The translations under genes were made by a program, and so were the position numbers. A stretch of DNA of 64,000 bases, taken from contig NC_019973.1 of NCBI RefSeq assembly GCF_000230995.2, positions 5,966,001-6,030,000 of the forward strand, written 5' to 3'. Source of the stretch: Mesorhizobium australicum WSM2073. Its GTDB lineage: Bacteria > Pseudomonadota > Alphaproteobacteria > Rhizobiales > Rhizobiaceae. The notes beneath the pieces are model-generated. The model did not search any database and was not told the origin of the DNA. It was given only the letters and a program-made list of their open reading frames with translations. Shown piece after piece: positions 60,188-64,000 of this stretch (the first letter of the stretch is position 1; every line of letters begins with the position of its first letter).

Positions 60188-61342
60188 CTAAGGACACTGC
60201 ACGATAACAGGCGTTTCGTGCTCCGCGATGCCAAACAGTTTCAATTCGACAATCCCCAGTTCGAATGCGACCGGGATGCCCTTTCCGGCACCAAGTGCTC
60301 GGTAGAAACCCGTGGCGAACGCGATCGCCGCTTCGTCACTGATCGTCGTGTGCATGCCGATGACGAAGGGGACATGCGGGGCAATCGCAAGAGCCTGGTT
60401 TTCAGAAAAGCAAGCGTTGAGCAGGACACACTGGACTTTCTCGCCCGCCGCCGCGAACAGCGCGGCCAACGCGTCGGGGTCGATTTCGTGGCTCGTCCCA
60501 TCGGATGCTTCCACACAGATTGCACCATCAGCAGTACCGTGGCCGGAGAAGTGCACATAGGCCGGTTCGAGCTCAAGCAGTGCCCGCACCATGTCCTTGG
60601 CACGGACTGCTCCGCGTGTTTGGAGGTCAAACCGCTCGCGGTATCCTGCCATTGCCAGCTCTTCTCGAATGTCCCGCAATTCCCTGTCGAGCCGCAACCG
60701 TGTTCTGTCCGAGGGATTGGCCGCTAGAAAGAGTATCCGGAGCTTCGTAGCCGTCTCGACAGCTAGTCCGCTCAGAGAGGTCACATAGTCCATTGTACTG
60801 TCGGCCCAGAGCGCGATACCATCGAAGAAATCGGCTTCTGCGCGTTCGTAGCGACGCTGCGCTTCCTCCGTCCCGAAATGTTCACGTGAGACAGGCGGGT
60901 TGCGCGAATCTCTGATCGCCTGCGCGAACTCACGGCACCCCTTCCACTGCTGGCTGGGATCCCCTCCGGTTACCCGTCTGGCCTTCTCCCGCACAAGGCT
61001 TTCAATCAGCTCGACCTCCGCGTCCCTGGGCCATTCTTCGGGCGTGATACCAGTGTCTTCCTTACGGTAGTGTCCAGCGGTACGCTTCGCCCTGGCCTTG
61101 AGCGAGCCAATAAGGCTTTTTAGCCCACTTCCGTTCGCGTCGATTTCCATCTTAGCCACGCTAATCCCCAATGCAGCGCCGTGCCGAGCAATGTACCCGT
61201 CGTGAGGCGCGAGCTTCACCTTAAAGCGAGCTGTGTTCGCCTGAACCGATTCGAGCCGAGGTCTCTTGCGATCCGCTGCCGCCACCACCTGCCGATGGGA
61301 TCGCTGGGATCTTCTCGGCGGAGGTGCGCTTCCTAGCCCCAA
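60188..61342 (-). CDS. CHAT-domain (caspase-like) protease, copy 1
   Basis: 384 residues from the first start. The C-terminal ~190 residues are a CHAT domain: LRILFLAANPSDRTRLRLDR opens it, His268 lies in VHFSGHGT and Cys308 in LLNACFSEN, the catalytic dyad. The N-terminal ~190 residues are a basic, helix-rich region without a recognised family (FKVKLAPHDGY, GLKSLIGSLKARAKR). The first ~30 residues are Arg-rich and may not be translated. It is divergent from the second CHAT gene. Confidence 0.85.
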   Translation of the reverse strand: MGLGSAPPPRRSQRSHRQVVAAADRKRPRLESVQANTARFKVKLAPHDGYIARHGAALGISVAKMEIDANGSGLKSLIGSLKARAKRTAGHYRKEDTGITPEEWPRDAEVELIESLVREKARRVTGGDPSQQWKGCREFAQAIRDSRNPPVSREHFGTEEAQRRYERAEADFFDGIALWADSTMDYVTSLSGLAVETATKLRILFLAANPSDRTRLRLDRELRDIREELAMAGYRERFDLQTRGAVRAKDMVRALLELEPAYVHFSGHGTADGAICVEASDGTSHEIDPDALAALFAAAGEKVQCVLLNACFSENQALAIAPHVPFVIGMHTTISDEAAIAFATGFYRALGAGKGIPVAFELGIVELKLFGIAEHETPVIVQCP

Positions 61343-61468
61343 TGCCGCTGCCCGCTCGACCGCTGTTCGGTCGCCACGACTCGACCATACGTCGCCTCGT
61401 GGGTCGACAATTGGTAGGCAAGTTCATACGGTTTAGCTTCGAGTTCAAGAGCAGTGATGGAGAATTGC

Positions 61469-61642
61469 ATGAATCAGCCAACTCTGCCGCCCTCTGAGCA
61501 GGAATTACTTGAACTTTGTCCTCAGAAACGCGAGCCAGGGAAGCGAGGAGGCCTAGGTCCGATGTTTCAGGCGCCACTGTTTGATTGCCCCCGGACAGCC
61601 CTTGCTCTTGGCTCGACCGCACCCATTCTGATTTCGGAGTAG
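61469..61642 (+). CDS. Possible 57-residue leader protein of the protease operon
   Basis: ATG at 61469 follows GGAG by six bases. The product, MNQPTLPPSEQELLELCPQK onward to ILISE, has no known family. It ends three bases before the next CDS, and the ribosome site of that gene lies within its last codons, so the two are coupled if it is translated. Confidence 0.45.
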   Translation: MNQPTLPPSEQELLELCPQKREPGKRGGLGPMFQAPLFDCPRTALALGSTAPILISE

Positions 61643-61645
61643 ACA

Positions 61646-62743
61646 ATGTCGCGCATCGATAGCCTGCGCAGCGAACTCGCTCGGCTTAAGCAATCGGAAG
61701 GGCGGCTTCGGAAGGAACTCGCCGGGCACGAGGCAACAGTTGCTGTGGCGCGGAAAGATGCCGGTTCGAAGCGTCAGTCGGCGGCGCGGTCCCGCAATGC
61801 GTCGTCGATCAATTCCTATCTCCGCTCGGCTGTGTCACTCGACCACAAGGCCACCGAAAGCGGTAAGAAGGCTGCCGCGGTCGCCGAGAAAATCGGTCGC
61901 AACGCCAAGGACCAAGCGAGCAAGCAGGCAGCGATCGCTAGCGCGGAAGAAGACCTGCGCAAGGAACGCGAGCGCGCCGACAAGAAGCGCCGACGTGAGG
62001 AACTCACTCACGCGCGTCAGGTTCACGGGCTCCTGCAGTCGGCCCCGCATCTCGCGCGTATCCCCGAGCCCAAACCCGAACGGCTCCGAGTCCTCTACGT
62101 CACAGCCAATCCCGAAGCGACCGAACGCATCTACCAGCGCGACGACGGGTCAGTCGTCGAGGAGGGCCGGTGGCTCCAGACCGACCGTGAGGTGCGGGAC
62201 GTTCGCAAGGCACTCAAGAGTGCGCTGCATCGCGATCTCATCGATCTCGAGCATCTTCCGGCAGCGACGTTCGCCGATCTGATCGATGGGACAAACGAAC
62301 GACGTCCGCATGTTATCCATTTTTCGGGTCATGCCGCCGAGGGCGCCTTGCTATTTGACGACGGGCTTGTCCACAGTACTCAAGCACGACCGATACCGCT
62401 GCAGTGGATTGCCGATCTGCTGGCGGCAACGACAACGCCACCGATTCTCGTTGTCCTCAATGCGTGCGACAGTCTCGTCGGCGCCGAAGCGCTGCTCGAA
62501 ACGGTCGCTGTTATTATCGGAATGCGTGGTGAAGTCGGGGATATTGGCGCCAGGGTATTCGCAGTGCGTTTTTATGCAGCGATCGCTGAGGGGCAGCCGG
62601 CGGGGATGGCTTTGCAGCAGGCCAGACTTGGCCTCAAGGACGCTTTGCTGCTGGACGACGCCTCCTTGCTCGAGTCGTTGTCACGATCGGGGACAGACCT
62701 TGATCAGGTTGTGTTGGTGAAGGGGCAAACGCCCGCCGCCTGA
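61646..62743 (+). CDS. Coiled-coil CHAT-domain protease, copy 2
   Basis: 365 residues. Residues 1-130 are a long charged coiled coil (SRIDSLRSELARLKQSEGRL, ASAEEDLRKERERADKKRR). Residues ~145-365 are a CHAT domain: LRVLYVTANPEATERIY, the dyad His229 in IHFSGHA and Cys274 in VLNACDS, and PAGMALQQARLGL near the end. GGAG lies six bases before the ATG. The coiled coil suggests assembly or sensing. It shares the fold but not the N-terminus with copy 1. Confidence 0.87.
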   Translation: MSRIDSLRSELARLKQSEGRLRKELAGHEATVAVARKDAGSKRQSAARSRNASSINSYLRSAVSLDHKATESGKKAAAVAEKIGRNAKDQASKQAAIASAEEDLRKERERADKKRRREELTHARQVHGLLQSAPHLARIPEPKPERLRVLYVTANPEATERIYQRDDGSVVEEGRWLQTDREVRDVRKALKSALHRDLIDLEHLPAATFADLIDGTNERRPHVIHFSGHAAEGALLFDDGLVHSTQARPIPLQWIADLLAATTTPPILVVLNACDSLVGAEALLETVAVIIGMRGEVGDIGARVFAVRFYAAIAEGQPAGMALQQARLGLKDALLLDDASLLESLSRSGTDLDQVVLVKGQTPAA

Positions 62744-62794
62744 GACTGATAGTTCGTGCCGGCGCGTCCGGACCAAAATGGAACTGGGGGACTG

Positions 62795-64000
62795 ATGAGT
62801 AGCGACGACAACGCTGAACGCGACAAGGGTCTCGTCTTTGTGGATACCGCTTTCGACCGACGGCCCGCGACCCATGTGATGATCATTGGCGTCGGCGCGT
62901 TTCAGAGCAAGAAGCTGAAGCCGGTTACTTCACCGCCGATCTCGGCACGCGCTATCGCCGACTGGTTTCTCGATCAGAAGGCCGGATTCACCAACCCGGA
63001 GCGGCCGCTCGGGAGCCTTGCACTGGCCCTCTCTGAAACGCCCCCTGGGCAGGCTGGCGCCCAATATGCAAGCGTAACCGTGCCACGAGCGACGTTTGCC
63101 GAGGTGAAGGCTGCAGTGAAGGACTGGGTCAAGCGGGCCAATACGCACAAGGACAACGTGATGGTGCTGTTCCTTTCAAGCCACGGCGAGAGCTTCGGTC
63201 GGAGGACAGCCTTCTTACTTGAAGACTACGACACAGACCCGCTTGAGCAGACCGCCGGAATGACCGAGATCGAGCAGTTCATTACAGCGCTCGAGAACGC
63301 TGTGCCGACGTCGCAGCTGTTATTGTTCGATTGCTGCCGTTTGAAGACCTCGTTGGGGCTGCCTGCCGAAGAGGAGTTCGGCACCAAGCTGATCTCGCTT
63401 TCACGAGCGCGGGACGACCACGGTGGAACGCGCCACCAATGGGCGCTCTGCTCAACTAGCCTCTATGAGGAGGCCGACGGTCGGCGCGATAAGACAACTG
63501 TCTTCACCGACAGTTTGCTCCGAGCGCTCAACGGTGCCGCGGCCGACGTGTCGGGGGCTCGCTGGCCGGTTCGACCCGGCATTCTCGTTGACCGGCTCAC
63601 TCAGTTTCTAAGGCTCTTTGCTCGACCAGACGGGTCGTTGCAGACGCCGGCGGGCCGAGCCGCTGGAAGCTTTGCGATCACCTATCCTGGCGGCCTTGAT
63701 CGGGTGAAAACCTATGTCAGTCTTTCCGATCGAGCCCGATGGCCACGCTGTCGCACCGTCATCTCAGACCATCGGGAGGTCGTATCTACGAAAACTGCGG
63801 GCGAGGCCGCGCCCTTCTTCGCGGAGTTTGACCTCGAAGAACTGAAGACAGTGACGATTTCAATTGATCGGGACGGCAAGGCTCTTGGGTCAGAGATACT
63901 TACCCCTCGCGCTCCCGTGGCATTCGTCGAAATCGGAGCGGTACCGACCGTCGAAACCGCCTCGCCAGTCCCGCGTCGCGGCCCCAGCGCCGAATTGGTT
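62795..64000 (+). CDS. Caspase-like (peptidase C14) protein, partial at window end
   Basis: At least 402 residues, open to the end of the window without a stop. The N-terminal half is a caspase-like domain: THVMIIGVGAF opens it, His130 in LFLSSHGES and Cys180 or Cys181 in LLLFDCCRLK form the dyad, and WALCSTSLYEEADGRRDKTT is the later strand. From ~300 a beta-rich region follows. TGGGGGA precedes the ATG. It is 51 bp after the CHAT gene, in the same direction, so the two likely form an operon. Confidence 0.85.
   Translation, partial: MSSDDNAERDKGLVFVDTAFDRRPATHVMIIGVGAFQSKKLKPVTSPPISARAIADWFLDQKAGFTNPERPLGSLALALSETPPGQAGAQYASVTVPRATFAEVKAAVKDWVKRANTHKDNVMVLFLSSHGESFGRRTAFLLEDYDTDPLEQTAGMTEIEQFITALENAVPTSQLLLFDCCRLKTSLGLPAEEEFGTKLISLSRARDDHGGTRHQWALCSTSLYEEADGRRDKTTVFTDSLLRALNGAAADVSGARWPVRPGILVDRLTQFLRLFARPDGSLQTPAGRAAGSFAITYPGGLDRVKTYVSLSDRARWPRCRTVISDHREVVSTKTAGEAAPFFAEFDLEELKTVTISIDRDGKALGSEILTPRAPVAFVEIGAVPTVETASPVPRRGPSAELV

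Follow-up and report, generated by a model that had tools for sequence, protein, structure and literature searches.

The right end of a 64,000-nucleotide stretch of the Mesorhizobium australicum WSM2073 genome (the window; positions 5966001-6030000 of the complete 6.2 Mb genome) holds two CHAT proteases and a caspase-like protease next to one another, which raises the question whether they form a defence system and, if so, of which kind. The analysis was extended 20 kb beyond the window end, and coordinates above 64000 are given in window numbering extrapolated past that end (L003 position + 54000). The cluster is very probably an intracellular conflict or cell-death system, as a sequence-only reading of the window had proposed. 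Its core of a caspase and a metallo-beta-lactamase (MBL) fold nuclease matches Canu (KaeCanABC), which Tuck et al. reported in November 2025 as a caspase-nuclease system against phages (PMC12799240). In our preferred reading, to which we give a probability of about 65%, one CHAT gene (CHAT1), a caspase/tail fusion gene and the MBL gene form the operon of a Canu-type abortive-infection system to which an effector has been added.

In the Canu paper, canu loci are described as differing from one another, several of their genes having no assigned function, and as encoding CanA, a caspase with an Ig-like fold, CanB, and CanC, an MBL pro-nuclease with two gating insertions that hold a conserved Gly (PMC12799240). 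KaeCanABC, the one member tested there, protects against T4; both catalytic sites are required, CanAB turns CanC into an active nuclease, and the escape of T4 was traced to dda, a helicase gene (PMC12799240). The MBL nucleases of Hachiman and AVAST are described in the same source as pro-enzymes opened by partner proteases.

All three proteases with intact His-Cys dyads were confirmed: the open reading frames (ORFs) stand where the sequence-only reading had placed them, Pfam CHAT and C14 models matched, and the motifs HFSGH/LNAC and SHG/DCC were recovered. CHAT1 scored 56.8 bits and the divergent CHAT2 35.5 bits against Pfam CHAT (cut-off 24), with HFSGH/LNAC unbroken in both. The proteases stand here by more than chance, because the only two CHAT matches at E ≤ 0.001 across the 6.2 Mb genome both lie at the locus. 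A whole-genome C14 search gave a single match, the convergent caspase-helicase that lies 3.6 kb beyond the caspase gene; the search overlooked the window's own weaker caspase and is thus not a census.

The caspase gene (62795-65218, plus strand; in-window part 62795-64000) runs 1218 bases past the window end, to L003:11218, and encodes a CanA-CanB-like caspase/tail fusion. Its ORF measures 820 amino acids from a GTG at 62756 and 807 from an ATG at 62795; the ATG is the more likely start, because a G-rich, ribosome-site-like stretch precedes it and it agrees with the N-termini of relatives. Pfam Peptidase_C14 matched the caspase domain at 38.4 bits (cut-off 21.4), and the SHG/DCC dyad is intact (H130, C181). 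Catalytic His and Cys were found in 12/12 caspases (11 Cys via a pattern, that of R. leguminosarum by reading). With the help of a structure model and structure comparison, the protein was divided into caspase (28-249), two predicted beta-sandwich domains (~300-483), a linker and a tail (~645-800). In the structure model, predicted local distance difference test (pLDDT) values per block were 46-75 at 300-483 and 21-61 elsewhere, and helices were predicted for the tail with low confidence. Full-length relatives of the fusion were found at 38-43%.

The MBL gene (65228-66307, L003:11228-12307, plus strand; 359 amino acids) begins 9 bases after the caspase stop, on the same strand, and its CanC-like product scored 236.8 bits against LmuA and 137 bits against Avs1a of PADLOC. 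The catalytic residues HxDxDH...D...HH...H were unchanged in 12/12 aligned rows. Its model contains seven low-confidence stretches; two of them (85-143 and 177-199) look like long insertions that separate conserved motifs, as would be expected of gating loops. A sequence search for relatives of solved structure, made with the MBL and with the caspase alignment, gave none at E ≤ 0.1. For the phylogeny a tree of 23 MBL rows was used, in which the window MBL stands among 17 rows (13 labelled canu). The remaining six, split off with support of 97/95, comprise two Avs1a rows, two annotated as ABC-3C, one from Runella (before a serine protease gene) and one from Enterobacter (unannotated). The caspase-associated MBLs all lie on the window MBL's side, away from the Avs1a rows. 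The canu label, which included Agrobacterium tumefaciens Kin003 with just a tail fragment, requires 3 changes on this tree, so that the labelled rows are clustered and do not form one clean clade.

For the conservation of the core, hidden Markov models (HMMs) were built from the caspase domain, the tail and the MBL and run on 25 loci and 4 more. They were iterated on the same loci, and their E-values are optimistic. The order caspase - tail - MBL was found in 13 of the 29 loci; Avs1a and ABC-3C loci, chosen as outgroups, are among the remaining 16, and near-duplicates (B. septentrionale, second S. americanum, R. laguerreae and Rhizobium sp. BG6) were left out of the count. The tail is fused to the caspase in five of the 13 (L003, which is the window locus, L014, L015, L016 and L017) and is a separate gene in eight (L018, L019, L020, L021, L023, L027, L031 and L115). 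Named hosts of the 13 core loci are alphaproteobacteria, Caballeronia and Streptomyces. One further observation concerns a Bradyrhizobium barranii 1S5 plasmid (L024:7950-14597), where the gene after a caspase gene encodes a canu-type tail in fusion with two trypsin-like stretches and a PLD domain; no MBL was found in this region, and the nuclease seems to have been replaced there.

In an order sample the fusion was found at full length in 2 further genomes of 297, with one caspase-only match, and in a class sample the caspase alignment matched its own copy only (1/385). A scan of genome contigs gave 5 loci (two in Mesorhizobium, one each in Labrys okinawensis, Labrys sp. KNU-23 and Rhizobium aethiopicum). 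The caspase protein matched those of Mesorhizobium ciceri bv. biserrulae WSM1271 and Mesorhizobium sp. B2-7-2 at a printed identity of 100%. On plasmids, tblastn with the caspase matched 20 records, 3 of them with at least 80% cover, and 8 regions were examined; a search with the MBL matched 62 records, from which 13 further regions were examined. The MBL was also found in 4/249 genomes of a second order sample (own genome, two Labrys and one weak match) and in 5 besides its own among the 398 genomes of a phylum sample, where one of four regions examined held caspase - tail - MBL. Scans of viral contigs with the caspase alignment and with a single MBL sequence, which detects close relatives only, revealed no virus-borne copy; distant MBL matches occur in 3 of 50,697 phage records.

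CHAT1 (61646-62743, plus strand) occupies the place before the caspase, which appears to be an exchangeable slot. Its charged, coiled-coil-like N-terminus (~1-135), judged as such from composition and alignment, precedes the CHAT protease; of the first 135 residues, 36% are charged and a single one is proline, and positions 1-131 of the profile of PADLOC candidate PDC-S66 matched there at 36.3 bits. Hydrolase genes adjoin 7 of the 13 cores (patatin in 5, Tle1-like in 1, alpha/beta-fold hydrolase in 1). A patatin gene stands directly before the caspase in Labrys sp. KNU-23 (4 bases), Labrys okinawensis and R. aethiopicum (4-base overlap), as does a Tle1-like hydrolase gene in B. barranii (8 bases). 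Patatin genes lie divergently beside the core in S. americanum and convergently in genome G985, and the alpha/beta-fold hydrolase gene of Streptomyces, known by annotation only, is divergent. The patatins of L015 and L019 were identified with Pfam and the others by similarity; six patatins, five beside Canu cores and one beside a lone canu-type MBL, make up one family with 36-88% identity. Other cores have other neighbours: A. tumefaciens CG920 has a CHAT gene downstream and a TIR-caspase pair in divergent orientation, Bosea a TIR gene, R. leguminosarum a HEAT-repeat gene at a distance of 0.7 kb upstream, and R. grahamii AAA and S8-like genes, judged by eye.

Two loci with such patatins were recorded separately. 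In genome G837 (L114:7336-9604) a patatin gene immediately precedes a canu-type MBL gene, with no caspase on the contig piece. In R. aethiopicum (L015:3675-8603) a 1642-amino-acid caspase - nSTAND1 - WD40 protein, possibly a further sensor, is encoded just upstream of the patatin-Canu operon.

Near-full-length relatives of CHAT1 were found in 6/146 Mesorhizobium genomes, 4 of which carry the locus block, and in 9 of 72,556 plasmid records. Both CHAT genes occur together in 4 of the 146 genomes, on one shared DNA stretch, with the caspase and MBL genes behind CHAT1 in each. What recurs elsewhere is caspase - tail - MBL. Identity of the block with its flanks is complete in two other species-level genomes (100% over 18,957 and 19,289 bases) and amounts to 98.3% over 12.9 kb in genome G778, where 4 codons of the caspase gene are changed by amino acid. 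Full-length open frames of CHAT1, the caspase fusion, the MBL and the caspase-helicase are kept in 4/4 copies.

It is highly likely that the locus holds a Canu core. We favour the Canu-type reading because caspase, tail and MBL stand in this order in 13 of the 29 loci, because the window MBL lies on the caspase-associated side of the tree, because the catalytic residues are invariant and because patatin and Tle1-like genes fill the slot in relatives. It is favoured also because codon changes between locus copies are mostly silent in the caspase (10 silent, 4 not) and the MBL (4 silent, 2 not). Whether CHAT1 is a second effector under control of the caspase is, in our estimate, an even bet. In the proposed mechanism, the fused CanA-CanB-like protein would sense phage infection, with the beta-sandwich domains and tail as presumed sensor or oligomerisation parts, and its caspase domain would turn active. 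The caspase would then cut the loops by which the MBL pro-nuclease keeps its active site closed, whereupon DNA would be destroyed and the cell stopped or killed; activation and defence have been demonstrated by others for KaeCanABC, and the same is supposed for this locus. As a second killing arm, the caspase might also release the slot enzyme, here CHAT and in relatives patatin or Tle1-like. Of the two proposed arms, only the DNase has experimental precedent; the slot-enzyme arm is inferred from gene position only.

Several points weigh against this reading. On the side of the core, the tail is a putative counterpart of CanB, the fusion was modelled unreliably in its caspase part (block pLDDT 21-36), and the model of the MBL is also weak (mean 60, 4 sequences). 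The window MBL has N108 and S199 where Gly stands in 10/12 and 8/12 rows, respectively; a Gly-directed cut as proposed for KaeCanC is therefore not assured. Among the 17 MBLs on the canu side, 4 have no caspase found, and the four rows there without the canu label stand beside other or unassigned genes. On the side of the slot, the Caballeronia core has no slot gene in its incomplete gene table, CHAT1 stands beside a Canu core on one island only (4 genomes), and its codon changes between copies (4 silent, 6 not) are inconclusive. No Canu core was found beside the CHAT1 relatives in the four plasmid regions examined (L061-L064) or in G681 and G696, the last two of which end near contig ends. 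The link between CHAT1 and Canu thus rests on one island and on analogy of position.

These points bear on how CHAT1 should be understood. It could be an independent defence gene that adjoins a complete Canu system by chance in a defence island, and it would then matter that its relatives elsewhere accompany other defence-like genes (TIR, S8 protease or other CHAT genes adjoin several of them), that the adjacency is seen on a single island, and that 51 bases separate CHAT1 from the caspase ATG, whereas the measured patatin and Tle1 loci range from an overlap of 4 bases to a gap of 8. We think chance adjacency unlikely, since CHAT1 lies on the same strand at a short distance and in a position equal to that of the directly abutting hydrolase genes in relatives. 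Less probable still is that CHAT1 acts as the initiator, its N-terminal part sensing infection or assembling and its protease activating the caspase fusion in a cascade from CHAT through caspase to nuclease. Such an order would suit the first gene of an operon and an N-terminal region that is a plausible adaptor, being common to another defence candidate model (PDC-S66); a TPR-CHAT protease is reported to work in the Craspase complex (PMC9729208). The slot of relatives, however, holds phospholipase-type genes, which are effector-like rather than initiator-like, and KaeCanABC consists of three genes, none of them a slot gene.

That the whole cluster is a decaying remnant without present function is very improbable. 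CHAT2 is split or shortened, and the A. tumefaciens Kin003 relative, where a search recovered an MBL and a fragment of the tail and found no caspase, would fit decay; yet CHAT1, the caspase fusion, the MBL and the caspase-helicase are open at full length in every copy, and codon changes are mostly silent in the caspase and helicase (10:4 and 20:9). A bolder form of the Canu-type reading probably goes too far: a caspase that commands two executioners together, one a DNase and the other an exchangeable enzyme (phospholipase, TIR or CHAT protease), here as a caspase-to-CHAT cascade, with the convergent caspase-helicase maybe as a second, DNA-sensing entry point. If true, it would be a parallel in bacteria to the initiator and executioner proteases and caspase-activated DNase of animals.

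The remaining members of the proposed set fared less well. CHAT2 (60188-61342, minus strand) is a divergent CHAT protease gene with an intact catalytic half and a disrupted or undefined 5' end. Its window ORF begins with TTG; in G778 it consists of two overlapping ORFs, and a 28-base stretch near the presumed 5' end that is present in G778 is missing from the window copy. None of 65 matching plasmid records reached 80% cover, and codon changes in the 3' part were 10 silent and 11 not. CHAT2 was treated as decaying or wrongly started; from the split in G778, the 28-base 5' gap and the plasmid result it is a doubtful component and probably not part of the machine. The intergenic region between the divergent genes (61343-61645) contains the possible 57-amino-acid ORF (61469-61642, plus strand), for which no family was found in PADLOC, Pfam or NCBIfam. 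It is frame-shifted in the 98%-identical G778 copy (two sequences compared), and the protein is probably not real.

The convergent caspase-helicase (66486-69623, L003:12486-15623, minus strand; 1045 amino acids) carries a caspase domain N-terminal to a Hel308/HamB-like helicase (Pfam C14, DEAD and Helicase_C), and its codon changes between copies were 20 silent and 9 not. On plasmids, 12 of 27 matching records reached at least 80% cover, from Agrobacterium (65%) to Hymenobacter (49%). Among four regions viewed around relatives, one had TIR and caspase genes adjoining and one a caspase gene. It is possibly an undescribed single-gene defence system; in the literature on such a fusion, only the Canu paper (PMC12799240) was found. 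Pairs of TIR and caspase genes with metallophosphoesterase, CHAT or S8 genes recur (L061, L021, L063, L078; Agrobacterium, Sphingomonas and Rhodopseudomonas plasmids), and these neighbourhoods resemble a shared pool of death effectors. About 11 kb to the right of the caspase-helicase, a 1177-amino-acid ORF (L004:6450-9983, minus strand) with a shikimate-kinase-like C-terminal part, recognised by eye, may encode a secreted effector of a plant symbiont.

A carbamoyltransferase gene, which we take to be NodU-like, lies just upstream of the locus, and a nifH-family match lies 17.5 kb left of the window. The identity of the block and flanks and these nearby genes fit a recent spread of a symbiosis island, which may be linked to the known element of strain WSM1271. 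Flank matches were found in Mesorhizobium mostly in pieces (right 100/146, left 28/146), and no empty site that would give an insertion boundary was found among the 146 genomes. A Canu-type system would thereby be placed on an apparent symbiosis island that moves between soil rhizobia. Questions on the targets of bacterial caspases besides the nuclease, and on caspase cascades with several executioners, now become concrete.

The sequence-only reading had further suggested that a sensor or pore-former may follow past the window. A decisive partner does lie just beyond the edge, and it is an MBL-fold nuclease, not one of the kinds foreseen (gasdermin, NTPase, TPR sensor). In Pfam scans that covered the six cluster proteins and also three downstream ORFs, without a gasdermin-specific model, no gasdermin or pore-former was found.

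Among known systems, AVAST type 1 shares the MBL-fold nuclease, which scored 202 bits against NCBIfam Avs1a (cut-off 420). It differs in that no trypsin-type Avs1b or Avs1c was found among the six cluster proteins, a caspase standing there instead; with a sub-threshold Avs1a score and an MBL flanked by the caspase fusion and the caspase-helicase, membership was rejected. Lamassu with a nuclease-protease pair is suggested by the LmuA match; it was rejected, as no SMC-type LmuB was found among the six cluster proteins with Pfam or with PADLOC, whose matches were listed to 25 of 45 for the caspase-helicase and in full for the others. Hachiman (HamAB, HamMAB) is resembled through its HamB by the convergent caspase-helicase, which differs by the caspase domain at its N-terminus; no HamA was found among the six cluster proteins with PADLOC, and genes beyond the caspase-helicase were scanned in part, with Pfam only. 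Type IV Thoeris, a TIR and caspase-like protease system that the Canu paper cites as Thoeris, likewise has a caspase-like protease in a defence locus. TIR-caspase pairs stand near some relatives, whereas the cluster proteins have no TIR match in Pfam. In EACC1-caspase systems the partners vary around a caspase that stays constant (Kaur et al. 2020, PMC7159879), as they do at the locus and in its relatives; membership was rejected, with scores of 39.5 (caspase) and 93.2 bits against the EACC1-associated caspase model (cut-off 140) and no EACC1 partner identified.

Canu is closest. A search of the literature from 2025 on for canu, caspase, nuclease and phage gave PMC12799240 only, the words patatin and CHAT have no occurrence in its main text, and among the matches listed in the literature searched, the Canu supplement excluded, no CHAT or patatin slot was described. 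The locus differs from Canu in the fusion of the caspase to the candidate middle component, the tail region occupying the place of CanB and being likened to it by position, and in the slot gene in front, CHAT here and patatin or Tle1-like in relatives. It shares a caspase-family protease, a candidate middle component and a downstream MBL-fold nuclease of the gated family, and the relatives of both sit among other defence genes and on plasmids. The sequence-only reading knew no named system with exactly this set and would have been refuted by assignment to one; this applies in part, to the caspase-MBL core, which was already described. The variant with a caspase-tail fusion and an exchangeable front gene is new as far as our searches reach. 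Together, the locus and its relatives suggest a caspase core with a modular slot for a second effector, in which CanA and CanB can be one protein.

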